Shown here piece after piece: positions 19,920 to 49,941 of a stretch of DNA of 64,000 nt. The notes below the pieces were generated by a model. That model searched no databases. It was not told the DNA's origin and saw only the letters and a program-made list of their open reading frames with translations. This DNA is from Rhodospirillaceae bacterium (GTDB lineage: Bacteria; Pseudomonadota; Alphaproteobacteria; Rhodospirillales; Rhodospirillaceae), in assembly GCA_040219235.1 (NCBI GenBank), contig JAVJSV010000016.1, positions 1 to 64,000 on the forward strand. Direction: 5' to 3'. How positions within the stretch are numbered: the first letter of the stretch is position 1; each line of letters begins with the position of its first letter. Both the position numbers and the translations under genes were made by a program.

Positions 19920-21188
19920 ATGTTCAAGATATCTCTTACACGCTCTCTTCAGCGGCGGTCCGTCATCGTTATGACAGCGCTTCTGGTAGCGGGGTGTTCA
20001 GGCGCGTCCGTCAACCAAAGCCTGGAACAACGTGCAGCACGACTCCATGACGAGATTATTGTCATAGACAGTGAAATCGATGTGCGTTTTGATCTATATG
20101 CCGATCCGTCCAAGGATCCGGCCCTAGATCAAGACTGGCAATTCACACTCCCAAAGATGGAACGCGGTGGCATGGATGCCGCTGTTTTTGTCGTCTATGT
20201 CCCTCAGGAATTGCGCACGCCCGAGGGTTACGCCAAAAGCTTTGAAGGCGGTCGTAAAAAGCTCGCGGCGATTCAACGTATGGCCGCAGAAAACCCCGAC
20301 CGCGTGGAAATTGCCAAAACGGCAGAGGATGTTGAGCGGATTGTCGCCGCGGGCAAGCGCGCCGCGATGATCGGGATTGTTAACGCCAGCGTGCTCGGGC
20401 CAAACCTGGAAGAACTTGATCTCTATGATGACGCTGGCGTGGTTTACATCGGCTTCACCCATGTGGGACATAATCAAATTTCAGACTCAGCGCGTCTCTC
20501 TGCGCCCAATGGCGATGGCCCGATAGAACATGGCGGATTGTCCGCCCTTGGAGTCGACCTCATCGCTGAAATGAATCGCCGTGGGATTTTGGTGGATGTT
20601 AGCCAAATCAGTGCGGACGCGCTGTTGCAAGCGGCAGCGGTCTCTCAAGCCCCCATCATCGCCAGTCATTCGTCTGTTTATGGTTTGGTGCCGACAGCCC
20701 GCAACATCACCGATGCGGGGCTACAGGCCATCACGGATACGGGTGGGGTGATTCAGATTGTCGCCTTCCGGAGTTTCATCCTCGATACCTATGATGATCT
20801 TCAAGCCGGGATTGCGGTTGTGCGGGAACGGTATGGTCTGACACCAGAGATGACCGCGGCAGATCTGCCATCAGATCAAATTGGCACGTTTCTCAAGGAC
20901 TATGGCAGTGTCGTTTTGTCACTTCCGATGCCCACGGTCAGCCAGTACGTCGATCATATTGATTATGCGGTCAAATTCATGGGCATCGACCATGTTGGCA
21001 TTTCGTCTGACTTTGAACATGGTGGCGGTATAGACGGTTGGAATGACGTCAGTGAAGTGGGTAACGTCACGTTGGAGTTGGTGCGACGGGGATATAGCGA
21101 CGAAGATATTAAAAAGATTATGGGCAGTAACTTTTTACGTGTGATGCGCGAAGCAGAAGAAATCGCCGCTCGTCTTTCACCTCAGTAA
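19920..21188 (+). CDS. M19 dipeptidase-fold lipoprotein with altered metal ligands
   Basis: A 422-residue protein started at M-F-K-I-S-L, which has AAGGTG upstream and gives a clean lipoprotein signal (V-A-G-C, C26). The body follows the membrane dipeptidase (M19) family: L-P-K-M-x-x-G-G-M-D-A-A, G-F-T-H-V-G-H-N, A-S-H-S-S and A-R-N-I-T-D. Several residues that bind the two zinc ions in the family are changed: the usual H-x-D is E52-I-D54, the bridging glutamate of G-I-E-x-G is V154, and the histidine of V-D-V-S-H is Q229. D54, H250 and R261 remain. It is therefore unlikely to be a standard dinuclear zinc dipeptidase; it may be a binding protein or a changed enzyme. It is divergent from methyltransferase B. 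Confidence 0.85.
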   Translation: MFKISLTRSLQRRSVIVMTALLVAGCSGASVNQSLEQRAARLHDEIIVIDSEIDVRFDLYADPSKDPALDQDWQFTLPKMERGGMDAAVFVVYVPQELRTPEGYAKSFEGGRKKLAAIQRMAAENPDRVEIAKTAEDVERIVAAGKRAAMIGIVNASVLGPNLEELDLYDDAGVVYIGFTHVGHNQISDSARLSAPNGDGPIEHGGLSALGVDLIAEMNRRGILVDVSQISADALLQAAAVSQAPIIASHSSVYGLVPTARNITDAGLQAITDTGGVIQIVAFRSFILDTYDDLQAGIAVVRERYGLTPEMTAADLPSDQIGTFLKDYGSVVLSLPMPTVSQYVDHIDYAVKFMGIDHVGISSDFEHGGGIDGWNDVSEVGNVTLELVRRGYSDEDIKKIMGSNFLRVMREAEEIAARLSPQ

Positions 21189-21204
21189 GCGAACGGAGTC
21201 TTCG

Positions 21205-21723
21205 CTATTCCGCGAGATTTAGCCGCTGCACGACACCACCGGCCATGAAATCGCGCCTGAAATACTGATCCCAAATGTTCGCATGCATCATGTTGACCTG
21301 CTTGTCGTGGGTGTCGATCAGTATGGCATTGCGAATGACCAGGCTTTCAAAGTTTTGGGGGAGGGTGACGTGTTGGCGGACAAATAGAGTGCCTGCGTTT
21401 AACTCCATTCCTTGCCAGTGTGTGTTGAGGGTCTCGCCCGCTGGAGTGCTTAAACTAAACCGCGCGTCGATATAGCTTTGAATCAACACTTCATTTGAGG
21501 GCGCGCCCTCGATCACCACAGCGTGCCCTTCAAGTTCGCTGAGGGCGATCTCGACATCCGCTTGATACAGCCGGTGTACAATTTCAAGAACACCGTTCGC
21601 GCGGTTATGCTCAAGCGTAAAAAAGGCAACCTCAAACCCGTCTGCAAGAACCGAAGGGATTTGACAGAAAAGAGCAATCGCAAAAACGCCTAGAAAACGC
21701 TTCCACGAACTCACATCTCTCAT
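21205..21723 (-). CDS. DUF6702-like periplasmic protein
   Basis: A 172-residue protein started at M-R-D-V-S-S, whose ATG overlaps the TGA of the upstream gene as ATGA, so the two are translationally coupled. Residues to about 28 form a Sec signal peptide (ends V-L-A). The mature part has V-A-F-F-T-L-E-H-N and L-E-I-V-H-R-L-Y-Q-A-D-V-E, a pattern I associate with DUF6702, small envelope proteins of unknown role. The coupling to the DUF3604 lipoprotein argues for a shared function. Confidence 0.7.
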   Translation of the reverse strand: MRDVSSWKRFLGVFAIALFCQIPSVLADGFEVAFFTLEHNRANGVLEIVHRLYQADVEIALSELEGHAVVIEGAPSNEVLIQSYIDARFSLSTPAGETLNTHWQGMELNAGTLFVRQHVTLPQNFESLVIRNAILIDTHDKQVNMMHANIWDQYFRRDFMAGGVVQRLNLAE

Positions 21724-23699
21724 TTTGCGGGGAGGTACCAAATGGGTGATGTCCAGGCTAATTCCTGAGTTGTCTTTGGCGCATCATTTTGACACTCCTG
21801 CGGGCGTTCGCTTTCTGGCAACGCAACGCATTGTGCCCAACTCCAGCGGAGCGTCGGCACTTCAACGGCTCTGAGATAGTAGTAAGATGGCTCACTGGGG
21901 TTGAACGTTTCATCTTCAAAAACAGTGCAGAGAGAGGGCGAACCGGTACCGCTCCATTCGCCTGTTTGTAAATCAATGTCACCGGTCTCGTTCTCTGCAC
22001 CTGCCACATCAAAAACTTTATAATGTGACTGTCCCTGACCATCGACCCAGCCTTTGATCACCTGCAGTTTCTGAAGGTGTGCCGACTCTGGGTCGCCCTC
22101 GGCACTGACCATAAAGGTGGGTTTGGCGTTGCCTGGGCGTTGCTCAAGGTCGCCGCCCATTGGCGTCCCGTTCGCATAGCCGTGTGCGGCTGGGTTGTCT
22201 TGGCTGCATGAGTCTGCAGAGAACGTCCAACCGCCAAATAATCTCGGTTTAATGCGGGTGCCGGTGGTCCCGAACACTTCGCGCCGTTGCAAGGATTCGA
22301 AAATAGCATCGCGACCGTTTTCAACAGCCCAAACCCCTGCTAACCCACCAGGATTCGCAGTCAGGCTGCGTGGCGAAGTATGAAAATTCATCAAGCGCTT
22401 TTGTAACTCTGTCTCCTCAACCAGGTGTCCAATCCAGGTCTGTTCGTCGGTATAGCCTGCTAATCCGATATGGGTGTCCGTCGAGGCGATCACACCAAAT
22501 TTATAGGAATTCAAACCAATCACGGCTTCGTCTTGAAGGCCGGTGAGCAGAACACTGCGATAAAACTCATTTTTTGAAACACACCCCAGGCTGATAAAGC
22601 CTCTTTGTCCCACTTCTCCCTCTTCGCAAAACTCAACAACTTTAACATCACCTCGAGGGTCAAGGCGTTCCCCGACCGATCGCGCTTGTTCGATGTTACA
22701 GAGCTCATCGGGTTCTCCTAAAATATCGGGTAACCCGTTAAAGCACTCAGAACTGCCTTTGTGCTGGAACACTTCCATAACCGGTTCCATGATATTGCGA
22801 AGTTGTGCCCTGGCGCGTGCGTCTGCTTGTGACTCAAAAGCCCCAGCATAAGACGGAAACATCTCGCCAGAGCTTATGTTGGAGTTATGAGGAATGGCCA
22901 GAACCTCACAGCCTGCAATGCCGTCTACGCATTGTGCGTTCAACTCAGCCCAAAGTTCATGATCTTTCGGTGTTTCAATGTAAGAAATCGCCCGCTCCGG
23001 CACCTGCTCATTGCGAAAGATAACATTGCGGTGGTAGTTGTTTGAATTCGGGGTGCCCGTGTGTTCATAGGCCACAAAGCTTGTAAATTCACAGGCTGAT
23101 GACCGGTCATAGGCGGCTTCTGCCATGTCTTGCGTAGCTTGCCAGAGCGAGATTGAAGCCTCGTCACAAGCGGTGCCGCCGGGACCGCAAATTTCCTCTA
23201 ACCGTTCTGGTTTTTGCGATATGACCATAGGAAAGAACGGAACCAATCCTCGCCCTTCTCCTTGCCGGAGCAACCAGCACGTTCTGGTGTCGTATACGTC
23301 ACTGGTCGGGTCAGAGCATAGGGCGAGTTCCCCAAAGAATTCTGAATGATCTGTAACGGCGGCAAAATCCAAGGGCCGTTTTAGTGTAAGCACACCTGTC
23401 GGCTTACCATCCTCGTTGTAAGGTGGCGTAGCTATGGGCCCCCCTTTTGCAAAGCGATACGCATCAGCGGGCGTTATCTCAGTGCCAAAGGGACGGGCAT
23501 CGTAGGAGAAGCCTGTGTGGATATGGAGGTCGCCAAAGTAAGCATTTCGATTGGCGTTACGGTCTTCGCATACCTGTCTCTGCTCGGTGTACCTTACTAA
23601 AGGTTCACTACCGGACTTAACCTCAGACACATCGTTGTGCGTCGCGCACCCAGAAACCATGAAAAGTAGAGCCAACGAGATTGCGCGTTTGAGAGGCAT
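21720..23699 (-). CDS. DUF3604 family lipoprotein
   Basis: A 659-residue envelope protein with lipobox V-S-G-C near residue 18. The mature start has Y-F-G-D-L-H-I-H-T-G-F-S-Y-D-A, and then D-F-A-A-V-T-D-H-S-E-F-F-G-E, a histidine/aspartate pattern like the metal site of PHP-type hydrolases and typical of DUF3604. Later A-I-P-H-N-S-N and S-T-D-T-H-I-G-L-A-G supply further likely metal ligands. The family is often annotated as hypothetical, and a hydrolase or esterase role is plausible only by fold. GGGAG precedes the ATG. It is the first gene of a two-gene unit with the DUF6702-like protein. Confidence 0.88.
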   Translation of the reverse strand: MPLKRAISLALLFMVSGCATHNDVSEVKSGSEPLVRYTEQRQVCEDRNANRNAYFGDLHIHTGFSYDARPFGTEITPADAYRFAKGGPIATPPYNEDGKPTGVLTLKRPLDFAAVTDHSEFFGELALCSDPTSDVYDTRTCWLLRQGEGRGLVPFFPMVISQKPERLEEICGPGGTACDEASISLWQATQDMAEAAYDRSSACEFTSFVAYEHTGTPNSNNYHRNVIFRNEQVPERAISYIETPKDHELWAELNAQCVDGIAGCEVLAIPHNSNISSGEMFPSYAGAFESQADARARAQLRNIMEPVMEVFQHKGSSECFNGLPDILGEPDELCNIEQARSVGERLDPRGDVKVVEFCEEGEVGQRGFISLGCVSKNEFYRSVLLTGLQDEAVIGLNSYKFGVIASTDTHIGLAGYTDEQTWIGHLVEETELQKRLMNFHTSPRSLTANPGGLAGVWAVENGRDAIFESLQRREVFGTTGTRIKPRLFGGWTFSADSCSQDNPAAHGYANGTPMGGDLEQRPGNAKPTFMVSAEGDPESAHLQKLQVIKGWVDGQGQSHYKVFDVAGAENETGDIDLQTGEWSGTGSPSLCTVFEDETFNPSEPSYYYLRAVEVPTLRWSWAQCVALPESERPQECQNDAPKTTQELAWTSPIWYLPAK

Positions 23700-39966: not shown

Positions 39967-40003
39967 TGCGGCCTGTCTTTCTTTGGACGGGCCGTTTTTC
40001 TGA
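39967..40003 (+). terminator. Terminator 2 of a tandem pair
   Basis: GCGGCCTGTC with GACGGGCCG around TTTCTTTG, followed by TTTTT. The sequence is a near copy of the terminator at 39910. It may also act on the convergent trcR gene, which ends at 40009. Confidence 0.75.
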
Positions 40004-40008
40004 AGGAT

Positions 40009-40665
40009 TTAATTTTCCTGGGTGCTTGGCCGGAACAAGTTTTCGGCTGTGACTTCTGGTGCGGCGGGAGCTTTTTTAGCTACCGGTGTTAGCTCTTCTT
40101 CTGGCAAAGGCTCCGGCTTGGGTGGCTCTATGCCTGCTTTTTTCGCGCGCTTTGCAGCGAGCAGCAGGGCTTTCTGAAGGTCCGGCTCGGAGCACAACCC
40201 GAGTGTAATGGGGTTCTGAGGTTTAATATTTTGAATGTTCCAGTGGGTACGATCTCGAATAGAATTGATTGTCGGTTTTGTTGTGCCCAGTAAACGTGAG
40301 ACTTGTGAGTCCTTCAATTCAGGGTGATGACGCAATAACCACGCAATGGCATCTGGTCGCTCTTGGCGTTTTGAAACAGGTGTGTAGCGTGCGCCTTTGC
40401 CGCGGGCTGTAGGCTTCGGAATATCAGATTTGCTCAGCTTGAGTCTGTAAGACTCATTTTCTTCGCCACGTTTGATTTCATCTGCAGACAGTTGACCAGT
40501 GGTCGTTGGATCTACACCAACAATACCAACAGCAACTTCGCCGTCGGCGATGGCCTGAATTTCAAGCTCGTGCATGCCGGTAAACTCGGCAATCTGATCA
40601 AAGTTAAGCGTCGTATTATCGACCAGCCAGACGGCTGTCGCTTTTGGCATCAACGGCAAAGCCAT
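40009..40665 (-). CDS. trcR: TrcR (DUF1013) cell-cycle transcriptional regulator
   Basis: A 218-residue DNA-binding regulator. It matches the DUF1013 family, named TrcR in alphaproteobacteria: M-P-K-A-T-A-V-W-L-V-D-N-T-x-L-x-F-x-Q-I-A at the N terminus (helix-turn-helix), R-P-D-A-I-A-W-L-L-R-x-H-P-E, and T-K-P-T-I-x-S-I-R-x-R-T-H-W-N-I-x-N-I-K-P. The last 45 residues are a lysine/proline-rich tail with no fold. AAAGGACG precedes the ATG. The family is strongly restricted to alphaproteobacteria, which supports the taxonomic call. Confidence 0.93.
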   Translation of the reverse strand: MALPLMPKATAVWLVDNTTLNFDQIAEFTGMHELEIQAIADGEVAVGIVGVDPTTTGQLSADEIKRGEENESYRLKLSKSDIPKPTARGKGARYTPVSKRQERPDAIAWLLRHHPELKDSQVSRLLGTTKPTINSIRDRTHWNIQNIKPQNPITLGLCSEPDLQKALLLAAKRAKKAGIEPPKPEPLPEEELTPVAKKAPAAPEVTAENLFRPSTQEN

Positions 40666-40784
40666 GGAAGCGTCCTTTCGGGTGGGTGACCAGCATCCGC
40701 CAATCCTGGCGGTGGCGCGGTAAACTGCAAATTATGGCGATGGTATATCGGAAGAGGGGATATAGGGTCAAACCCGCAGAACGC

Positions 40785-41783
40785 CTAATTATCTTTCGTT
40801 CGCAGTAAAATTTTACCGATATGGCCACTGTTTTCCATCAGCGCATGGGCCTCAGATGCCTTAGAAAGTGGCAGAATACAGTCGATTCTGGGTCTGTAGT
40901 GACCGCCTTCGACCCACGGCCAGACGGTTTTTCTGATGGAATCAGCAATTCCAGTTTTAAAATTCGCTGATCTGGCCCGTAAAGTCGATCCCGTGATGGT
41001 GAGCCGTTTGAGCATGACCTGCATAAAATCAACTTCAGATTTTGAACCGCCAAGAAAGGCGATAAACACGAGGCGTCCGTCTGGTCTGAGGCATTTCAGA
41101 TTGCGCGGAACATAATCCCCACCGACCATATCCAAGATGACGTTGACACCTTTTTGCGGGCGGTTTCTGATAACCTCTACAAAGTCCTGGTTTTTGTAAT
41201 TTATGGCTATGTCTGCGCCTAAATCGAGGCAGGCTTGGCATTTTTCATCTGACCCGGCTGTGACAATGACCTCACTGCCGTGGGCTTTCGCCATTTGGAT
41301 CGCGGTCGTTCCTATGCCGCTAGAGCCGCCGTGGATAAGAACTGAATCGGTGGCTAAGAGTTGCCCAAGCTCAAATACGTTATGCCACACTGTAAAAGTT
41401 GTCTCGGGAAGGGCTGCTGCTTCTATGAGACTGATGTTGCTCGGTATCTTCAGGCAAGACCCTGTGTCCGCGATCGCAAATTCGGCATAGCCGCCGCCCG
41501 TCAATAAGGCGCAGACAGAGTCGCCGACTTTAAGTCCCACCACATCTGAACCGATCGAATGAACGATGCCAGAGACTTCTAGCCCTGGAATGTCCGACGC
41601 GCCGTCCGGCGCTGGGTATTGCCCGAGGCGCTGAAAGACGTCTGGACGGTTCACGCCAGCGGCAGCGACTTCGATTAAGATCTGGTTGCGATCAGGTGTT
41701 GGAATAGAGCGTTGCCCCATGACTAACACGTCCGGGCCTCCAGACTCAGAGATTTCGACGCAGTTCATGACCTGATTATTCAT
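40785..41783 (-). CDS. NAD(P)H quinone oxidoreductase (zinc-independent MDR family)
   Basis: A 332-residue medium-chain reductase of the quinone oxidoreductase/PIG3 type. The Rossmann segment is V-L-I-H-G-G-S-S-G-I-G-T-T-A-I-Q, preceded by A-A-A-L-P-E-T-x-F-T-V-W-x-N-V. No structural zinc cysteine cluster is seen. The start was set at M-N-N-Q because the upstream ATG abuts its GAGG site directly; the difference is four codons. It reduces quinones or enones with NADPH in known members. It is divergent from the DUF1192 gene. Confidence 0.9.
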   Translation of the reverse strand: MNNQVMNCVEISESGGPDVLVMGQRSIPTPDRNQILIEVAAAGVNRPDVFQRLGQYPAPDGASDIPGLEVSGIVHSIGSDVVGLKVGDSVCALLTGGGYAEFAIADTGSCLKIPSNISLIEAAALPETTFTVWHNVFELGQLLATDSVLIHGGSSGIGTTAIQMAKAHGSEVIVTAGSDEKCQACLDLGADIAINYKNQDFVEVIRNRPQKGVNVILDMVGGDYVPRNLKCLRPDGRLVFIAFLGGSKSEVDFMQVMLKRLTITGSTLRARSANFKTGIADSIRKTVWPWVEGGHYRPRIDCILPLSKASEAHALMENSGHIGKILLRTKDN

Positions 41784-41886
41784 GTTCTTTTGCATCCTCT
41801 TTCTTGTGGCGTAAAGTTAGGCGGACTTTAATGACCACAACCTGCACCGTCCAGGCCAGTGCAAGCGTTAGTAAGGGGAGGCAATT

Positions 41887-42066
41887 ATGGATGGCGAAGA
41901 ACTAGAACCGTTGCGCAAAAAGTCGAAACCTCGTGATCTGACGGTGATGTCGATTGAGGACTTGGAAGACTACATACAGACACTGTCGCAAGAGATTGAG
42001 CGCACCAAGAAAGCAATTAAGGCGAAACAGAGTGCGCGGATGGGTGCTGAATCAGTGTTTAAGTAA
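41887..42066 (+). CDS. DUF1192 family small protein
   Basis: A 59-residue protein below usual length cut-offs. GGGGAGG lies six bases before the ATG. The sequence has K-P-R-D-L-T-V-M-S-I-E-D-L-E-D-Y-I, then E-I-E-R-T-K-K-A-I-K-A-K and G-A-E-S-V-F-K at the end, which is the DUF1192 pattern (L-S-x-E-E-L, a short coiled coil, and a terminal A-D-x-x-F-K). The role is unknown. The trcR, quinone oxidoreductase and DUF1192 order is one I associate with Rhodospirillales. Confidence 0.85.
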   Translation: MDGEELEPLRKKSKPRDLTVMSIEDLEDYIQTLSQEIERTKKAIKAKQSARMGAESVFK

Positions 42067-42092
42067 CTAAGGGCTTGTGCGTAACCTGTGTC

Positions 42093-44033
42093 TTAAAGGT
42101 CAGCCAGTTCATCGCGATGGGCATCGGTCCAGGCAATCTCGAAAAGCGCCTTCGGTTTTTCGATACCCTTCATTTCGAACTCGCCGCGCGGCAGGAAGCC
42201 GAAACGCTGTCCTTGGCAAGACTGCACCACAACCTCTGAAACCCAGGCATGGCCATCGGCGGCTTTATCACAGATGCGTGCGGTCATTTGCACTGCCTGG
42301 CCAAAAAAGTCGTTCTCTTCTTCAACCGCTTCACCGGTGTTCACGCCTATTCTAATTTCAACTGGAATATCCGGGGTGGCTTTGTTGTGGGAGGCTATGG
42401 CTTGCAGCATCTGTATCGAAGCTGCGACCGCAGATGGACCATCGGGGAAGGTGGCCATAATGCCGTCACCCGTGTGTTTCACCTCTCGGCCATTGAATTT
42501 TTGGATTGCGCCGCGCACAGCATCATTGTGTGCCCGCACCGCCTTTTGGGCGCCAGCATTGCCTAATTGCTGAGTCATGGCCGTAGAGCCGACAATGTCG
42601 GTGAATAGAAATGTGAACATGTTGGGCACGGATGGTCTTTTTTCGGGTAAATTCCATTCTGTCAGTAACGCACTTAAGCCTGCGTTCGCTGCGGCTACGC
42701 CAGCCATAAAGTTACTCATGGCTTTACTGCCGGCCTGAATCATCCCTGCGTAGCGCGGATTTTGACTGTGTGCTGGAATATCGTCACAGAAAGACTGCGC
42801 GCGCGCGGCATTGGTGCCGATTAGGTTAAGGCCATCCTTGAGGAGGCCCAACATTACGTCGTTGGTGAGCCCTTTGGCCTGGCATATGGTTGTGCAAGCG
42901 CCACACATATAGAGGTTCATACCGAACTTGCTGAAGGTATTCAGTTGAGCATGTTCGCTTTGAATAGAGGTTACGGCATTTGTTAAAAACTTGAGAAATT
43001 CTGGTTTTGCTGCATCGGCAGGGCTTTTCGGTTTTTTCTTCTTTGCGTCAGCTTTCTTTTTCTCTTCGTCTTGTTTTGCTTTCTTTTGAGTGTCTTTTTT
43101 CTTTTTGTCGTCTTCCTTTTTTTTGTCCGATTTTTTGTCCCCGGTGGCCTTATCTTCAGGCTCCTGTTTTGCAGTGTCATCAGGTTTGTCGGTCTCGAAG
43201 CCCTCATCATCACCAAGGGACGGGGCGAGGCCATCTTCCTGTTCTTCTTGAGCCCTTACGCGCTTGGTTAACTCCTCAAGGTCAGCGTTGGCCAAATCTG
43301 AAACATCTGCTGGGACTCTTTTGCTTTTACTCGCCTGATTGATCGGAACCGTTTTGGGGGCGGGGCCACGATTTTTCTTCGGTTGCTTCTTAAATATCTG
43401 AACTAAATTGAACTTTTTGTTCAGATACATAAATGCTGTACCGAAGAACAATAAGATAAATGTACCGAAGACAAGAGCATTCCGGTTTCCGGATGGTACG
43501 AGACCAGCCTCAACCAACTGAAACAGAATCAGTGTAATGGCGAGAGAACCAATAACGGCAGTTACTAAGCTCAGAATGAATCCGGTCAGCACGACCAATA
43601 TTGCGTTCTTAGCTTTTTTTCTCGTTTTTTGTTTTTTTGTTCGGTCATCTTTCTTGATCACCTGTTGGCGCTGAGCGCCACGCCCTAATTGACCTGCCGA
43701 AGAGCGTTCTTTGCTTTCAGATCGGCTTGCACCCCTGGCAGGTCCGGTCGCACTTTTGCCTTTTCTAGGCGGACCGCCAGGGTCACTAGCACCAAACATT
43801 GAGTCTGAATCTGTGATCTTTTTTGCGCGGTTGCCTTGGTAGGAGACGACTTCTTCTGTGGTGTTTGATTCTGGATAGAAGGTTTCGCGAATGACCCGCG
43901 CTGGGTAGCCAAGATTTGCCTCTACAGACTTCGCTTCCTCAATCGCAATTTCACGTTCTTGGGTTTCAAACCTTGCATGAACATGCCATCGGCCATTCTG
44001 AAAATAATAGACTTCGAAATGCTCAATCGCCAT
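42093..44033 (-). CDS. Membrane class III adenylate/guanylate cyclase
   Basis: A 646-residue protein. Residues 1-65 form a small conserved N-terminal domain shared with the next gene (F-x-x-G-R-W, H-A-R, Y-P-A-R/K-V-I). Two membrane segments follow at about 146-178 and 185-205, then a long lysine/aspartate-rich linker (about 270-345) and a helical cysteine-containing segment with C-G-A-C. The cyclase domain starts at 473: metal-binding D479 in F-T-D-I-V-G-S-T and D523 in H-T-G-D-G, and the purine-contact K519. The usual transition-state asparagine is glutamine (V-Q-M-T-A-R), though the arginine is kept. The product is likely cyclic AMP or a related nucleotide. No good ribosome binding site is visible. 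Confidence 0.88.
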   Translation of the reverse strand: MAIEHFEVYYFQNGRWHVHARFETQEREIAIEEAKSVEANLGYPARVIRETFYPESNTTEEVVSYQGNRAKKITDSDSMFGASDPGGPPRKGKSATGPARGASRSESKERSSAGQLGRGAQRQQVIKKDDRTKKQKTRKKAKNAILVVLTGFILSLVTAVIGSLAITLILFQLVEAGLVPSGNRNALVFGTFILLFFGTAFMYLNKKFNLVQIFKKQPKKNRGPAPKTVPINQASKSKRVPADVSDLANADLEELTKRVRAQEEQEDGLAPSLGDDEGFETDKPDDTAKQEPEDKATGDKKSDKKKEDDKKKKDTQKKAKQDEEKKKADAKKKKPKSPADAAKPEFLKFLTNAVTSIQSEHAQLNTFSKFGMNLYMCGACTTICQAKGLTNDVMLGLLKDGLNLIGTNAARAQSFCDDIPAHSQNPRYAGMIQAGSKAMSNFMAGVAAANAGLSALLTEWNLPEKRPSVPNMFTFLFTDIVGSTAMTQQLGNAGAQKAVRAHNDAVRGAIQKFNGREVKHTGDGIMATFPDGPSAVAASIQMLQAIASHNKATPDIPVEIRIGVNTGEAVEEENDFFGQAVQMTARICDKAADGHAWVSEVVVQSCQGQRFGFLPRGEFEMKGIEKPKALFEIAWTDAHRDELADL

Positions 44034-44216
44034 GTGCCGCGTACACTGCTTAACCAGCAGCCCTTTATCAACGGTCGAAAATTGAGTCTTGTGACCCCAC
44101 CATTAAGGAGGATTTGTAGTCGTTAATGCCCCCCAACTCAACAATATGAGGATTAAACCCTAAGTTCGAATTAACGCGCAATGCGCGCAAATATGACAAT
44201 GTTGCGATTAACGCGA

Positions 44217-46085
44217 CTATGCCGGTACGGATGCCAATTTCCTGGCGGGAGGCTGTTTCCAGATAATGTCGTGCCCGTTGGACACATCAGAGAGGCTGGT
44301 GCTGGTATTCCAGCTATTTTGTAGGCGGGCGTCCCCAGCAATCTGACCGCTCTCTATTTGACTGCAAAGTTCGTTTAAGTATTCAAAAACATGTCCTGTT
44401 ATGTCGGCACCATCGTGTGAGTTTTGACCTGCGGCCAGTGCCAGGCGCAATGTCGGCTCCGTTGCACTGTCATTTTCGTTGGTGCGCTGAATAAGCAGCG
44501 TTGCCCTTAGAGCGTCTTCTGGACCGGTAAAGCGGGCAAAGACACCCTTTCCAGTGTGACGTATTTCTTCACCGTTGAATCGGGTTAGGGCTGCCCGCAC
44601 AACTCTATTATGGCGTTCAATATCGTCTGCTCCGTCAAAAGTATTCTTGATGGACAGTGACGACAGAAGAAATACATCAGCGACGGGGGGCGTTTGGCGC
44701 TCGGTTGGCTGTTCCCATTTCGCAATCGCAGCCCTTAAACTCTCGTTTGGTTTATTCGATAATTGCAGGTGTTGATACATCGCCTCTTCGCCAGCGTGAA
44801 CGACTTCCTTGTTCTTTGGCATTTCCAGGTCTTGTTCAACACTCTTCAAAAAAGTCTCTCGTTCCTCGTTTGACTGTCCAAGCAAGGTTAAGGCTTCTGA
44901 GAGAACATCTTTCTCCTGCTGCGGTGTGAGGCCGCGGCGATCGGCAAGTGCCGCGGCACCGCCGGCTAAATACAGCGCTACACCATGCCGCGTTTTTGCA
45001 TCTAATTTCGCCTGCTTGGTGCGTAGGTTCATAACCGTATCGCCCAAGAATCTAACCATCATTAGACGGTCTAAATCCATATCTGTCAGCGCGGTTGGTC
45101 GGTTTGCTTCGGACACAGCCGCTTTTATTCTGTCCGTAGCTCTGGAGTCATTTTCTAAATGAGGTTCTTCTAGGTAAGGTTCATTTTTAGGCTTTGGTTG
45201 CTCTGGTTTCTTTTCTCCAGCTTTTTTCTGGGTGCTGGCTTTTATCGCTTCGTCTTTAACTTGAGGCGTGGGCTTTTTTGGGGGAGCCGGAATAACTACT
45301 TCGCTAGTGAACTCTTCGGAGTCTTGGCTGTCGTCGGCATCATTTAACGTGTCAATGGAGTCTAAGTCCCCGCGTTGGACTTTCATATCATGTATTTCTT
45401 GAGCGCGTTCGCGCTCGCGTTCGCTGGAGTCATATTTCGGCTTGAACGACATTCCTTGCGCCGGCTTGGACATGGCGGTTTTGATTTGGCTTACAGCTCT
45501 TGAAGCTTTTTCATGCTTTGCAAACAGGCGTCGCCAGGGCACGTAGGCTTTATTGAGAGCGATACAGCTCACCCCGAACATCGCAATATACCAATACACC
45601 GATATTTTGGTGCCAATGTCGTTTGAGAGCGAAATGCCAAGCTTCGGCAGATTATTGAGCACTGTTCCGAGCAGGACAGTTAAGGCTGAAGCAATCAACA
45701 GGCTTGCCAATAGAGCCAACACCAGACGGGTTAAGAACTGACCGTGGCTGACAGGAGTGGTGTCTACGATACCGTTTTTGGGCTGATGAGCATTCTGATC
45801 AGAGCCGGTTTGGCGGGTTGTGTAAGTCCCCGGTCGTTTTCCACGAGGTTTGCGTTTCTGGGCTTTACTCTTGGCATTAGGGCTTATGTAGATAACCGAT
45901 TCTTCAGAGTAGTTCAGATCACGATGATAGGTGTCTTTGATGACTTTGGCCGGGTAGCCGGTCTGATACTCGGTCTGTCTGGCATCAGATAATGCTTGGT
46001 CACGTTCAGCACCAGGATACCTCGCATGAAAGTACCAGCGACCTTCATCAAAGATATGGACTTCGTATTGAACAACTCTCAGCAT
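44217..46085 (-). CDS. Paralogous cyclase-fold protein lacking catalytic residues
   Basis: A 622-residue protein with the same architecture as the cyclase that follows it: N-terminal G-R-W-Y-F-H-A-R and Y-P-A-K-V-I domain, two membrane helices (about 115-140 and 150-172), a charged linker, a helical segment with L-T-P-Q-Q-E-K-D-V-L-S, and a C-terminal cyclase-like domain. Both metal aspartates are replaced (F-L-L-S-S-L-S-I and H-T-G-K-G), the purine lysine is R, and the G-x-x-V-N/Q-x-A-R motif is lost. It should not make cyclic nucleotides and may instead pair with the active cyclase. It lies 183 bases upstream of it on the same strand. Confidence 0.85.
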   Translation of the reverse strand: MLRVVQYEVHIFDEGRWYFHARYPGAERDQALSDARQTEYQTGYPAKVIKDTYHRDLNYSEESVIYISPNAKSKAQKRKPRGKRPGTYTTRQTGSDQNAHQPKNGIVDTTPVSHGQFLTRLVLALLASLLIASALTVLLGTVLNNLPKLGISLSNDIGTKISVYWYIAMFGVSCIALNKAYVPWRRLFAKHEKASRAVSQIKTAMSKPAQGMSFKPKYDSSERERERAQEIHDMKVQRGDLDSIDTLNDADDSQDSEEFTSEVVIPAPPKKPTPQVKDEAIKASTQKKAGEKKPEQPKPKNEPYLEEPHLENDSRATDRIKAAVSEANRPTALTDMDLDRLMMVRFLGDTVMNLRTKQAKLDAKTRHGVALYLAGGAAALADRRGLTPQQEKDVLSEALTLLGQSNEERETFLKSVEQDLEMPKNKEVVHAGEEAMYQHLQLSNKPNESLRAAIAKWEQPTERQTPPVADVFLLSSLSIKNTFDGADDIERHNRVVRAALTRFNGEEIRHTGKGVFARFTGPEDALRATLLIQRTNENDSATEPTLRLALAAGQNSHDGADITGHVFEYLNELCSQIESGQIAGDARLQNSWNTSTSLSDVSNGHDIIWKQPPARKLASVPA

Positions 46086-46152
46086 ATCGATTCAGTGATT
46101 ATTGACGTTAAACACTAAACGTATTGATACCGGAAAAGGTTCGCGCCCAACA

Positions 46153-46182
46153 CAAAAAAGCCGCCTTCCGAAGAAGGCGGCT
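46153..46182 (-). terminator. Terminator of rpmE
   Basis: On the minus strand AGCCGCCTTC and GAAGGCGGCT form a ten-pair stem with a TTCG tetraloop, followed by six T. It lies about 27 bases after the rpmE stop. Confidence 0.92.
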
Positions 46183-46208
46183 ACAATATCTTGTGCTTTT
46201 TTAGGGTT

Positions 46209-46433
46209 TTAGTTTTTCAAACCAAAATTTGAGAAACGCTTATTAAACTTTGCCAATTGACCGCCGGAATCGAGCAGGCGGTGAACCCCTGTCCAAGCCG
46301 GGTGGGTCTTGGGGTCAACGTCAAGACGAATCACATCGCCTTTTTTGCCCATCGTGCTGCGGGTGACGTATTCCGTGCCGTCGGTCATGATCACGGTGAT
46401 TTCGTGATAATCAGGATGAATATTTTTTTTCAT
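46209..46433 (-). CDS. rpmE: 50S ribosomal protein L31
   Basis: A 74-residue protein started at [10 protein letters not shown], the standard L31 N terminus, with GAGGAAAA just upstream. V-I-M-T-D-G-T-E-Y and H-P-A-W-T-G follow. The zinc-binding cysteines of the C+ form are absent, so this is the zinc-independent (C-) type. It has its own strong terminator. Confidence 0.95.
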
Positions 46434-46532
46434 GGTTTTCCTCACCAAAAAGTCGCTGGGGTATACCGAACCAAGACTGGAGACGCAAGGCCCAAGGCGA
46501 CCCAAAGCGGCACTAAGCTGCTGAATTTTGAA

Positions 46533-47756
46533 TTATCTTTGGTCGACTTTGAGCTCAATACGCCGGTTTCGACTGCGCGCATCGGGCGTCTGGCCAGGGT
46601 CGATCGGCTGATACTCGCCAAATCCCGCCGCAGCGAGCCGTTCCGGAGTGATCCCCTGGGTCACTAAGTATCTGACAACAGAGAGCGCTCTTGCGCTGGA
46701 TAACTCCCAGTTTGAGCGGAATTCAGCTGTGCTGATCGGCACATCATCCGTATGGCCATCAACACGCATGATCCAGTCAACTTCTTCCGGAATATCCCGT
46801 GAGATGTCTATCAGGGTCTTGGCCAATTGATCCAACTGGCGTTGACCTTCGATGCCCAAGTCAGCAGAGCCGCTGGAAAAAAGCACTTCGGATTGGAATA
46901 CAAATCGGTCGCCAACAACTCTGATGCCGGGGCGGGTGCCCAATATGTCTCGCAAACGACCGAAAAACTCTGAACGATACTGCTGTAACTCTTGGACTTT
47001 TCCTGCCAAAGCCCGGTTCATTCGACGTCCGAGATCAGAGATCTGTGCTTTTTGTTCGGCTGATAACGCATCGGAGGCATCAAGGATTGCAGCAAGTCGA
47101 CCGAGTTCTTCTCGCAAAGCTTCCAACTGCTGGGTCATAAGCGCGGCTTGAGCGCGTGCTTCTATGGTCAGCTTGCGCTCATCAGCAACTTGCCGCTCCC
47201 GCTCAACGACGCTGTCGCCAAGCCGTTCGATTTCGCTTTCTAACTCCGCCCGCAGGGCTTCAAGCGCCCGAATGCTCTGTTGCAACAGGGCCGCTTCTTG
47301 GCGTTGCTTCGAGAGAAGCGCCTGATCTGCTGCTGCGGCTTCAGCTGCGGCGTCTAACGCGACTTGCATGCGTTCCCGCTGTGCAGCGGCTGTCTCTGCT
47401 TCTGATGTTAAGACAGCGATTTGGCCGGAAAGCTCCAGATTTTCCATACGCAGGGCTGCCATGCCGTCCAGTTCAGCATTTGCAGTTTGTAATTGATCTG
47501 AAAGTTGGGAAACATTCAGGCGTAACTCCTGATTCTCTTGACGCTCAAGCGCGAGCATTTCGCCAATCTCATTCATCTGGAGGGTCAGTCTGTCCAGAGC
47601 TTCGTCTCGTCCAGAGAGGGCCTGACCGAGAAAGAACTGTCCAAGGACAAATACCATCAGAATAAAAATGATGATGATCAAAAGGGTCGCTAAGGCGTCG
47701 ACGAAGCCAGGCCATATGTCTGTGGTTCTGCGGGTGCGGCGGGCGGGAGAGGCCAT
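46533..47756 (-). CDS. MotB/OmpA-like peptidoglycan-binding protein
   Basis: A 407-residue protein with one N-terminal membrane helix (about residues 20-45, after R-R-T-x-x-I-W-P-G-F-V-D-A-L-A-T-L-L), a long coiled coil to about 260, and a C-terminal OmpA domain (V-D-G-H-T-D-D-V-P-I, then N-W-E-L-S-S-A-R-A, R-N-R-R-I-E). The F-V-D-A at the start of the helix fits the proton-site aspartate of MotB/ExbD-type proteins. It lies 19 bases after the MotA/ExbB-like gene. The two should form a proton-driven stator-like complex anchored in peptidoglycan; no flagellar genes are near. Confidence 0.88.
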   Translation of the reverse strand: MASPARRTRRTTDIWPGFVDALATLLIIIIFILMVFVLGQFFLGQALSGRDEALDRLTLQMNEIGEMLALERQENQELRLNVSQLSDQLQTANAELDGMAALRMENLELSGQIAVLTSEAETAAAQRERMQVALDAAAEAAAADQALLSKQRQEAALLQQSIRALEALRAELESEIERLGDSVVERERQVADERKLTIEARAQAALMTQQLEALREELGRLAAILDASDALSAEQKAQISDLGRRMNRALAGKVQELQQYRSEFFGRLRDILGTRPGIRVVGDRFVFQSEVLFSSGSADLGIEGQRQLDQLAKTLIDISRDIPEEVDWIMRVDGHTDDVPISTAEFRSNWELSSARALSVVRYLVTQGITPERLAAAGFGEYQPIDPGQTPDARSRNRRIELKVDQR

Positions 47757-47775
47757 GACTGCTGCTTAAACCGGC

Positions 47776-48984
47776 TTAGTCGTTGTTCTCTGAGCGGCCA
47801 CTTGAAGCTGCCACAGTCTTGGAAAGGAGTTTGATTTCAGATCGGATGTCTTTCACCATCTGATCTCTGCCGGACATCAACTCAGTCACCAAGCGCCCAA
47901 GCGCGTGATCGATATTGCGGATGTGGGTCTTGGTATCTTGGTCAAACCCGGCATTTTGAGGTTGGTTAAAGATGTCACCGAGTGATCCGATTTTTTCCAA
48001 AAGTGGTGCCAGATCTTTTTGATTTCCGGCAACCTTTAGAAGGACTTGCTGCTCTGCCTTCATCTGTTCTGTCAGCAAGGAAAGCTTCTCATTCATGGTT
48101 GCAAAGTGTTCGTTCGCCGCAATTCGGCTTTCTTCACTGCGCCCTAATATGCGCTGAAGTTCATCCAGGCTCTCGGCCGTTTGTTCGAGGAGGGCCTCCG
48201 TGTAAGCCGAGACACCTTGCTCACCGTCGCCAACACTGGTGCCAGAAGAGAGCCGTGTCATGCCAGACAGCCATTCTTCTAAGTCATTGTAGAAGGCGTT
48301 TTGTGCTTGTCCCGCTTGGAGGTCTAAGAACCCCAGAACAAGGGAACCCGCCAAGCCAAAGAGAGAAGATGAAAATGCCGTTCCCATCCCTCCCAAAGGT
48401 GCTTCAAGGCCTGCCTTAAGATCATTGAAAACGAGAGAGATGTCGTCGCCCGTGATCGACAGATTGCGGATAACGTCGCCCACGGAGGCGACCGTGCCAA
48501 GAAGACCCCAGAACGTACCCAGAAGGCCCAAGAAGATAGACAGTCCAACAAAGTAGCGGGCGAGGTCCCTTGATTCTTCAAGGCGGGAAGCGATCCCGTC
48601 CAAGAGAGTCCGCATAGCTTGAGCGCTGAGCGAGAATTTACCGCCGCGGCTGTTACTCTCTGACAACATGCGTGCCATAGGGGACAGGAGCCTAGGTCCA
48701 GTGCCGGAGAGGGATTGAGGCTCATCATCATTTGAAGTTGGCGCGCTTAGCCTCTTTTCCGCGCGGCCTTGAAACGATTCAAGCCACTCAATTTCGGGCT
48801 TCAGCATCACGACTTGCCGGACATTTAGCATGATGCCGATGAGCAGGACCCCGAGAATGAGACCGTTCAATAGTGGATTTGCGAGGAACGCATCGATAAG
48901 CGTTCCATATAGGAACGCACCTGCGACGCCGCCTGCGACTAAAAAAAGGATCATGCGTGTAAGAAAACGTGTCGTGTCTGTCAT
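47776..48984 (-). CDS. MotA/TolQ/ExbB-like membrane protein
   Basis: A 402-residue inner-membrane protein. Two N-terminal helices are at about 11-31 and 38-54; the family core is at about 141-230, with G-L-L-G-T-F-W-G-L-L-G-T-V and G-G-M-G-T-A-F-S-S-S-L-F-G, the ExbB/TolQ/MotA proton-channel pattern. A helical C terminus of about 150 residues contains coiled-coil stretches. It precedes the MotB/OmpA-like gene, and follows the OmpA-like gene by 39 bases, making a three-gene unit. It is distinct from the true tolQ at 60972. Confidence 0.88.
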   Translation of the reverse strand: MTDTTRFLTRMILFLVAGGVAGAFLYGTLIDAFLANPLLNGLILGVLLIGIMLNVRQVVMLKPEIEWLESFQGRAEKRLSAPTSNDDEPQSLSGTGPRLLSPMARMLSESNSRGGKFSLSAQAMRTLLDGIASRLEESRDLARYFVGLSIFLGLLGTFWGLLGTVASVGDVIRNLSITGDDISLVFNDLKAGLEAPLGGMGTAFSSSLFGLAGSLVLGFLDLQAGQAQNAFYNDLEEWLSGMTRLSSGTSVGDGEQGVSAYTEALLEQTAESLDELQRILGRSEESRIAANEHFATMNEKLSLLTEQMKAEQQVLLKVAGNQKDLAPLLEKIGSLGDIFNQPQNAGFDQDTKTHIRNIDHALGRLVTELMSGRDQMVKDIRSEIKLLSKTVAASSGRSENND

Positions 48985-49023
48985 GCTGGATCCGCTGAAA
49001 TACTTTCTAAATTTTCTCTAAAG

Positions 49024-49941
49024 CTACTCTAAGACCACATCGACACGGTTTGGCTCACCGCTCTCAATTTGGTCGCCAAGTGCTCTCACTTCAATCCGGG
49101 TGCTTTGAATGCCAGCGTCCATGAGAAACTCACGGACGGATAGTGCCCGGCTCAATGACATTCTGCGGACACTACTGGGCGAGCCATCGGCACTGCTCGC
49201 ATATCCTAGCAATTGCACACGCAGATTACCGTCAGAATTCATTCGCTCGGTGACGGATGCCAAGCTAGCGGCGGCAGAGAGCGGTAAGTCTTTTTCTTCC
49301 GGGCTAAAAGCTATCGTGATTGGCGCGTTGGTCATCTCGGGCGGAAGCGATCCCACCTGGTCTGCTTGCGGCTGAATAATAGGTTCTGGTGCCGGGTCTG
49401 GCATGGACTCAACGGCAGGCCCCATTGTTATGGGTACACCTGATGCTGATACTTTTGGTGCAGGATCGGACATCTCAGCGGCGAGTGGAGCCGGAGGAGT
49501 TGGAGCCGTCGTTGCTACGGGGGGTGGCTCAGGCTCAGTGACCGATGGTGATGGGGCAACTGAAGTTACCGAGGTTGGCGGAGATGCTGCCGGAGGGGCC
49601 GGTTTAGGCACGGTTATGCTGGGTGTTCCTGCTGCACGATTTGGTATACCCGGGGGGGGGCGCAAAACTACGCGAGACTGTCCTGGTGTGACGGCGCTAA
49701 CCCCAGGCGGTGGCCTTAGCACTATGCGGCCCGATGTCAGTGGCGCAGTTGGCATTAATAGGCGAGGAGCCAGTGCTCGTGAGTCTAGGTCATCAAGTAC
49801 GTCAAGATTAACGGCAACACCTTCAGAATTTTGAGCGTGCACGTTTTGGTCCAAGCCTAATACAGCGCCGAAAATTGCGCAGGTCAGTGCTGTGTGTAAC
49901 ACCTGAGCGCGGATGTTTTGTCCGCAACGCCCCTTAGCCAT
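49024..49941 (-). CDS. Proline-rich OmpA-family envelope protein
   Basis: A 305-residue protein with an N-terminal hydrophobic segment that looks like a signal peptide (to about residue 36). Then comes a long proline/alanine/serine-rich linker with repeats of V-L-R-P-P-P-G (two copies near 55-95), and a C-terminal OmpA-like domain (L-L-G-Y-A-S-S-A-D-G, L-S-R-A-L-S-V-R-E-F-L). The linker could span the periplasm. It is the first gene of the unit with the MotA- and MotB-like genes. Confidence 0.8.
   Translation of the reverse strand: MAKGRCGQNIRAQVLHTALTCAIFGAVLGLDQNVHAQNSEGVAVNLDVLDDLDSRALAPRLLMPTAPLTSGRIVLRPPPGVSAVTPGQSRVVLRPPPGIPNRAAGTPSITVPKPAPPAASPPTSVTSVAPSPSVTEPEPPPVATTAPTPPAPLAAEMSDPAPKVSASGVPITMGPAVESMPDPAPEPIIQPQADQVGSLPPEMTNAPITIAFSPEEKDLPLSAAASLASVTERMNSDGNLRVQLLGYASSADGSPSSVRRMSLSRALSVREFLMDAGIQSTRIEVRALGDQIESGEPNRVDVVLE

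Follow-up and report, generated by a model that had tools for sequence, protein, structure and literature searches.

A retained pseudo-cyclase beside an apparently active class III cyclase in one bacterial family

Introduction

Why would a bacterium keep, next to a gene for an apparently functional nucleotidyl cyclase, a paralogue whose catalytic residues are gone? The question is raised by two adjacent genes in a 64,000-nucleotide stretch of Rhodospirillaceae bacterium DNA (assembly GCA_040219235.1, contig JAVJSV010000016.1, positions 1 to 64,000), the whole of which is called the window here. One product, P1, looks like a class III cyclase by its fold, its profile match and its metal-binding aspartate, purine-binding and arginine residues. 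The other, P2, is a class III cyclase-fold pseudoenzyme in which the predicted fold is kept and the catalytic residues are gone. P2 is a maintained pseudo-cyclase tied to P1, and it is probably a regulator of P1. The best explanation as a whole, to which we give a probability of roughly 0.45, is that a cyclase gene was duplicated and that P2 serves as a brake on P1, or as a non-catalytic regulator of another kind; within it, the duplication, the residue loss, the keeping of the predicted fold, the selection and the co-inheritance are shown by the sequences, and we infer the contact between the two proteins, the sign of the effect, the signal and the product.

Dead paralogues retained as regulators of an active enzyme are familiar among degenerate GGDEF/EAL proteins and pseudokinases, which belong to a different enzyme class from P2. 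Among class III cyclases, the best-known heterodimers are those of eukaryotes, where a degenerate domain completes the active site of the other domain. Dead regulatory paralogues and heterodimeric cyclases are both known, and the bacterial pseudo-cyclase twin is a variant.

Architecture and fold of the two proteins

A first-pass annotation of the sequence had described two long membrane proteins, and both open reading frames (646 and 622 amino acids, minus strand) lie exactly where it placed them. The features of the pair are as follows.

42093..44033, minus strand: P1, putative class III nucleotidyl cyclase, membrane protein of 646 amino acids with intact catalytic residues (PF00211, Foldseek, residue alignment)
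43836..44033, minus strand: P1 N-terminal domain, amino acids 1-66, strand-strand-helix-strand-strand, without a Pfam match (Pfam, AlphaFold2 model)
43419..43613, minus strand: P1 hydrophobic segment with two membrane helices, amino acids 141-205 (model and hydropathy)
42651..43022, minus strand: P1 helical domain between linker and cyclase domain, amino acids 338-461 (AlphaFold2 model)
42135..42620, minus strand: P1 cyclase domain, amino acids 472-633, with D479, K519, D523, D575, Q582 and R586 (Pfam, model, alignment)
44034..44216, minus strand: gap of 183 bp between P2 and P1, possibly holding P1's own promoter (conservation in four related genomes)
44217..46085, minus strand: P2, pseudo-cyclase paralogue of 622 amino acids, co-directional with P1 and upstream of it (Foldseek, profile, alignment)
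45885..46085, minus strand: P2 N-terminal domain, amino acids 1-67, with the same predicted fold as that of P1 (AlphaFold2 model)
45543..45746, minus strand: P2 membrane helices, amino acids 114-181 (model; only the first helix passes by hydropathy)
44712..45083, minus strand: P2 helical domain, amino acids 335-458 (AlphaFold2 model)
44256..44675, minus strand: P2 dead cyclase domain, amino acids 471-610, with the metal positions occupied by Ser and Lys, the purine Lys replaced by Arg, and a Glu at each of the two transition-state positions (model, alignment)

P1 and P2 align over almost their full lengths with 23% identity (E-value 1e-35), and single-chain AlphaFold2 models of both have the same domain order: N-terminal domain (N-domain), membrane helices, a charged linker modelled with low confidence, helical domain and cyclase domain. 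The common architecture proposed earlier therefore stands for the N-domain, helices, charged linker and cyclase fold of both models, and is less certain at one point: hydropathy finds two membrane helices in P1, and in P2 just the first rises above the cut-off of 1.6.

P1 matches PF00211 (E 8.9e-15), as do all 54 active-type homologues scanned, and its model matches the solved structure of the Mycobacterium avium enzyme Ma1120 (4wp8) with a Foldseek E of 1.9e-13 and a template modelling score (TM) of 0.91 of the target. The Lys/Asp purine pair suggests that the substrate of P1 is probably ATP, in which case its product should be the signal molecule cAMP. The Pfam scan gave no match of any kind for P2, and none of 15 P2 orthologues matched PF00211 at E<=0.1. 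The best Protein Data Bank match of the P2 model is again Ma1120 (4wp3, Foldseek E 6.5e-6), and solved cyclases are also reached by a P2 profile (E 2e-11 for 3mr7). The mean predicted local distance difference test score (pLDDT) of the P2 AlphaFold2 model is 79; when its dead domain is divided into 14 blocks of ten residues, 11 of them score above 80.

The N-domain, represented by 75 positions without a Pfam match, also occurs elsewhere. At E<=0.01 it is found in 60 of 240 genomes of the class, and of the 76 matches listed, 30 fall within open frames of 95-239 amino acids, some of them perhaps shortened by contig ends; the profile used contains one misaligned row (L045, cut 150 bases too far in). 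It is an unnamed small domain that may stand alone as well, and the search of these 240 genomes for other settings yielded no function for it.

Catalytic residues

Residues were counted in an alignment of 82 proteins: 22 P1, 39 other active-type copies and 21 P2. The 39 rows of the single-copy group come from part of the 80 named loci. L058 and L125, where the cyclase gene has been duplicated separately (see below), contribute two rows each, and L100, a locus of the same kind, contributes its first copy. Interrupted P1 copies at L038 and L065 are represented by their longer piece only, and those at L040 and L078 were left out. Also left out, from the tree described below as from these counts, were the P2 of L040, where a stop immediately precedes the dead-domain hairpin, the P2 of L099, which lies in two overlapping frames, contig-edge or broken pieces from G236, G310 and G313, and a whole-looking copy from G312 (L160). 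The stops and frameshifts that interrupt P1, P2 or both at L040, L038, L065, L078 and L099 reflect either assembly error or true decay.

The metal aspartates D479 and D523 that the first-pass annotation had picked out in P1 are confirmed by this alignment, being kept, with the purine residues K519 and D575 and with R586, in all 61 active-type copies. The position of the transition-state asparagine is occupied in these copies by glutamine (57 of 61), threonine (three) or arginine (one), a feature that does not decide cyclase membership, and P1 of the window has glutamine there (Q582). The possibility that P1 is inactive owing to this substitution was ruled out. Ma1120 carries alanine at the same position and is active, and a swap to asparagine reduces its activity, according to the available part of PMC4215837; because glutamine is family-wide and Ma1120 works with alanine, the residue is no sign of decay.

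The corresponding sites of P2 have diverged. Among 21 sequences, the first metal position holds Glu in 15, Asn in three, and Ser, Ile and Asp in one each; the second holds Lys in 12, Thr in four, Arg in two, and Asn, His and Ala in one each. Neither the second metal aspartate nor the catalytic arginine is kept in any of the 21. The purine lysine is kept in 16, and the purine aspartate is lost in 17 on the same alignment, in which P2 is divergent enough that assignment of the purine-Asp and transition-state columns is uncertain by a residue or two. P2 of the window has Ser, Lys, Arg, Glu and Glu at metal 1, metal 2, the purine Lys, the Asn/Gln and the Arg positions, respectively. Ser and Lys at the metal positions and Arg for the purine Lys agree with the initial description of P2, as does the loss of the transition-state residues, where the two glutamates are placed to within a residue or two. 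The hairpin around the lost aspartate is kept, with the pattern H-T-G-x-G-(I/V)-(F/L)-A-(R/H/Q)-F in 20 of 21 sequences (the exception is L053), and part of the preceding helix is also conserved within the P2 clade.

Selection on P2

For six close pairs, the ratio of nonsynonymous to synonymous substitution rates (dN/dS, by the Nei-Gojobori method, NG86) in the dead domain is 0.135, 0.085, 0.284, 0.099, 0.069 and 0.170, and in the P1 cyclase domain it is 0.009-0.089 (five computable pairs). Synonymous sites are partly saturated, so that these values are rough, yet they are far from neutral. Where computable, dN/dS of P2 is 0.06-0.14 in the N-domain, 0.06-0.19 in the helical domain and 0.07-0.28 in the dead domain. 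The N-domain evolves more slowly than the dead domain in three of six pairs and faster in the other three (L059-L066, L039-L046 and L038-L046). Both the tree described below and these ratios indicate that P2 evolves faster than P1. By these substitution rates the dead domain of P2 is under purifying selection, and the action of selection on P2 supports the view that it has a function.

Origin of the pair

We searched 297 genomes of the order and, from the matches listed, fetched 40 loci (L036-L075), mostly the best-scoring ones. Sixteen carry P2 (in L051 the contig ends before P1), 23 have a single active-type copy and one, L058, has two active-type copies. A gene order is wholly or partly common to them, with insertions in some: EF-P, inositol phosphatase, OmpA-like, MotA/ExbB-like, PRK09039-like, ribosomal protein L31, cyclase, quinone oxidoreductase PIG3 and TrcR. 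L31 precedes P2 in every one of the 16 pair loci, and it precedes the lone cyclase in 21 of the 23 loci with one copy, which places the insertion of P2 between L31 and the ancestral cyclase. Most likely, P2 arose by tandem duplication at this site in one family.

The restricted distribution of P2 is evident from a profile search of 317 genomes of the order, where 23 have matches at E<=1e-100; these 23 belong to one family and to five genera. The named relatives that carry the pair are titled as metagenome or uncultured assemblies, several of them Rhodospirillaceae and some bearing conflicting names such as Candidatus Marinimicrobia. In a quick IQ-TREE analysis (82 rows, 567 columns), the 22 P1 rows group into one clade and the 21 P2 rows into another, both with a Shimodaira-Hasegawa-like approximate likelihood ratio (SH-aLRT) support of 100. 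The remaining copies form one side of a branch with support of 17, and the joining point of P2 is left unresolved by its long branches.

Several other forms of the gene were encountered. A separate tandem duplication outside the pair family, with both copies active-looking, is seen at L058 (176-1945, 2286-4196), L125 (3876-5891, 5983-7983) and L100 (2081-4105, 4197-end), and perhaps represents an earlier stage of the path taken by P1 and P2. Some single-copy genomes have split frames, one for the N-domain and membrane part and one for the helical and cyclase part, as in L075 (5927-6760, 6760-7878), G107 and G257; these are putative split genes or frameshifts. A third, dispersed paralogue on contig C4 of genome G000 (20942-21940; L170, 5886-7529, minus strand) has a helical and a cyclase domain, with no N-domain detected, and is 43% identical to the P1 cyclase domain. 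Similar ones occur in G295, G251 and G242, and this paralogue could be another partner for P2. A search of a plasmid collection with residues 112-646 of P1 matched 412 records, all below 60% identity and none over 80% of the query.

Co-inheritance of the two genes

Conservation of the pair together had been set beforehand as a test of the proposed relationship. We searched 73 family genomes with the P2 and P1 profiles; the counts that follow are among the matches listed, from which weak fragments may be missing. P2 is present whole, broken or at a contig edge in at least 27 of the 73. In 25 of these 27, P1 or a piece of it adjoins P2 on the same contig; of the other two, G291 has P1 on another contig and G310 is unreadable where its contig ends. 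No genome with readable flanks was seen to carry P2 without P1, and no intact P1 of the pair clade was seen without P2 in a readable genome. Four genomes have P1 without P2 (G285, G311, G272 and G266), and in the first three a contig end at P1 or shortly before it leaves P2 unreadable. The remaining family genomes have the single-copy type of cyclase or are not judgeable.

Both genes are missing from five genomes in which L31 and PIG3 lie close together (G242, G269, G289, G299 and G306). Two retain remnants, namely scraps of P1 with stops in G242 and about 30 residues of the end of P1 in G299; the other three have no trace of the pair by tblastn at E<=1e-3. These losses may represent fewer events than genomes, and G289, whose genus has no known pair, may never have had one. 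The pair is thus conserved together in that P2 is never seen without P1 where the locus is readable and both are absent in these five genomes.

The fourth genome with P1 alone, G266 (L156, 7772-9079), has complete flanks from which P2 is gone. Its P1 lacks the N-domain and about 100 linker residues and keeps the membrane helices and both the helical and the cyclase domain; dN in the cyclase domain is 0.03-0.08 where synonymous sites are saturated or nearly so. That this strongly constrained catalytic half persists where P2 is gone makes it unlikely that P1 depends on P2 for catalysis. The joint loss weakly suggests that P2 acts through the N-terminal half of P1.

Gene surroundings and regulation

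The gap between P2 and P1 (44034-44216) is 183 bp here and 96-367 bp in 16 related pairs. Its mean column identity among four related genomes is 78%, and P1 synonymous differences are 0.70 and 0.91 in two comparisons among three of these four. It may serve P1 as a promoter or regulatory element. The gap holds a conserved GACTC, which is a GANTC site and thus presumably a cell-cycle methylase target, and a conserved GTTAA. No sigma-70-type promoters were found in 41700-46800, a region with 10 terminator-like sites compared with 7.1 +/- 3.0 in shuffles. Between L31 and P2 lies a terminator-like hairpin (46182-46159, minus strand) with a 10-pair stem and a T run; given this hairpin upstream, P2 may start its own transcription unit. 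Rfam gave nothing at gathering scores in 40000-48000.

Beside L31, MotA/ExbB-like and OmpA-like genes (46533-49941) form a block that recurs in many loci across the order. The MotA/ExbB-like protein matches ZorA weakly (E 0.00035, 19.6 bits, cut-off 500), and because of its recurrence across the order the block is likelier to be a housekeeping membrane system than a defence island. In the same genome the cyclic-nucleotide-binding domain is matched 11 times and PF00211 four times beyond P1, and cyclic nucleotide signalling is probably present in it.

Proposed mechanism and alternatives

In the explanation that we favour, an ancestral single membrane cyclase gene downstream of L31 duplicated in tandem, the downstream copy, P1, keeping its catalytic residues and the upstream copy, P2, losing both halves of the catalytic machinery and keeping its predicted fold and domain plan. 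P2 and P1 would join the same membrane assembly through their N-domains, membrane helices and helical domains. Class III active sites draw on residues of both partners; in many known heterodimers one chain makes good what the other is missing (PMC8815786), and the catalytic-domain surface of soluble guanylyl cyclase (sGC) permits homomeric as well as heteromeric association (PMC3591389). At one site of a mixed dimer, the metals of P1 would face a P2 without the catalytic arginine; at the other, the arginine and purine residues of P1 would face a P2 with lysine, or another residue, for the metal-binding aspartate. Mixed dimers would be dead or nearly so, and P1-P1 dimers, with two complete sites, would make cyclic nucleotide. 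P2 would act as a brake whose grip is set by a signal sensed through the N-domains, and the cyclic-nucleotide-binding domain proteins of the same genome could be the signal readers. A brake is favoured because both P1-P2 sites are expected to be defective, so that pairing would lower output unless the assembly is larger than a dimer. The narrower proposal that this separately encoded, doubly dead paralogue is a dominant-negative brake through inactive mixed dimers, possibly with a nucleotide at the metal-free site where Lys stands for the metal-binding Asp, is one that we offer tentatively and at somewhat poorer odds.

Several observations weigh against a brake acting on P1. Genes in tandem are expected to be passed on and deleted as a unit, which makes their joint absence weak evidence that they interact, and in G266 a single deletion could have removed both P2 and the P1 N-domain. 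The P1 of that genome is alone among 22 in having Arg at the position of Q582, which makes its activity without P2 uncertain. The gap and its conservation suggest that P1 may have its own promoter, and equal dosing of the two proteins is therefore not assured. The sign of the effect, brake as opposed to activator, is deduced by residue logic alone, contact between the two proteins is hypothetical, the models being of single chains, and the activity of P1 is a prediction.

Opposite in sign is the possibility that P2 is an activating or sensing subunit: P1 homodimers would catalyse, and P2 would attach to them by way of the N-domain, the membrane part or the helical domain and pass on a signal. 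We consider this unlikely, if still a serious rival, and judge in the same way the version in which the dead domain is a structural or nucleotide-sensing module resembling the forskolin site of mammalian enzymes. All three folded domains of P2 are constrained. Its second metal position carries a basic residue (K, R or H) in 15 of 21 sequences and 16 retain the purine Lys, so that nucleotide could still be held without metal; moreover, the available parts of PMC8815786 and PMC3591389 describe, for other enzymes of class III, degenerate pseudosymmetric sites at which regulators bind or may bind. On the other side, the catalytic Arg is missing from all 21 P2 sequences and, on this alignment, the purine Asp from 17 of them, and the present data do not separate the two signs. 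We find it distinctly improbable that P2 has instead taken on a new function as a membrane protein, has ceased to work with P1 and is its neighbour by origin only. Its faster evolution would fit, linkage by itself accounts for co-inheritance, and the catalytic half of P1 survives without P2 in G266; however, P2 is not seen without or away from P1 where flanks are readable, five genomes lack both, and the whole domain plan, including the predicted cyclase fold, is retained.

Decay of P2 as a pseudogene has very little to recommend it. A few assemblies have a broken P2, with one in-frame stop in G183 and overlapping frames in G233, and some lineages lack it together with P1, but the frame is open in the 21 tree orthologues, dead-domain dN/dS is 0.07-0.28 and residues are common across the P2 clade. 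We regard decay as largely ruled out by dN/dS and by open frames across the clade. Even slimmer are the chances of an obligate catalytic heterodimer in which P2 completes the P1 active site, as C2 does for C1 in mammalian adenylyl cyclase or alpha for beta in sGC. P1 and P2 are tandem, co-directional homologues of equal architecture. Yet the Arg and the second Asp occur in none of 21 P2, and P1 and its single-copy relatives keep complete sets, with homodimeric sites possible. Mammalian-type complementation is rejected on these residues, P1 being complete and P2 lacking both sets. The regulating pseudo-subunit thought plausible in the first-pass annotation thus gains from co-inheritance and from selection on P2. 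A heterodimer of the two is a candidate arrangement, and it would depart from the eukaryotic pattern of active-site completion, both shared sites being crippled if the cyclase domains pair.

Relation to known cyclases and significance

By fold and profile, the solved structures nearest to P1 are Ma1120 and the cyclase domain of Rv1900c/LipJ from Mycobacterium tuberculosis. Ma1120 is like P1 in its Lys/Asp purine pair, catalytic Arg and non-Asn residue at the transition-state position (available text of PMC4215837). Unlike P1 and P2, the matched solved chains of Ma1120 and Rv1900c do not cover a comparable N-domain or membrane helices. The C1 and C2 domains of mammalian membrane adenylyl cyclase and the alpha and beta chains of sGC are pairs of homologous class III domains with one catalytic and one degenerate pseudosymmetric site, as described in the accessible parts of PMC8815786 and PMC3591389. 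In these enzymes the halves complement each other into one full site, whereas P2 lacks both residue sets and P1 has a complete one. The NeoR/RGC1 rhodopsin-cyclases of chytrid fungi resemble P1 and P2 in being paralogous membrane cyclases from separate genes, and NeoR and RGC1 act together.

Closer counterparts of the bacterial pair were also sought. The cyclase-like proteins of PMC4886424 were rejected as a counterpart of P2, as in the part of that paper available they keep the aspartates almost throughout and are without membrane helices. The pseudoenzyme review PMC10211241 contains none of three cyclase terms, and none of six terms occurs in the 20,587 characters of PMC2447327 that were covered. 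A literature search of titles and the starts of abstracts, outside subscription papers and preprints, found no bacterial pair of active and pseudo-cyclase of this kind.

The locus reveals a bacterial lineage with a duplicated cyclase in which one copy has lost its catalytic residues entirely and is still kept. Single copies, pairs, lineages with neither gene and a lineage in which the active half alone remains occur at the same syntenic locus, leaving the origin and use of a pseudo-subunit open to direct comparison. If our explanation is true, a separately encoded dead twin would set the cyclic-nucleotide output of these bacteria as a built-in brake.

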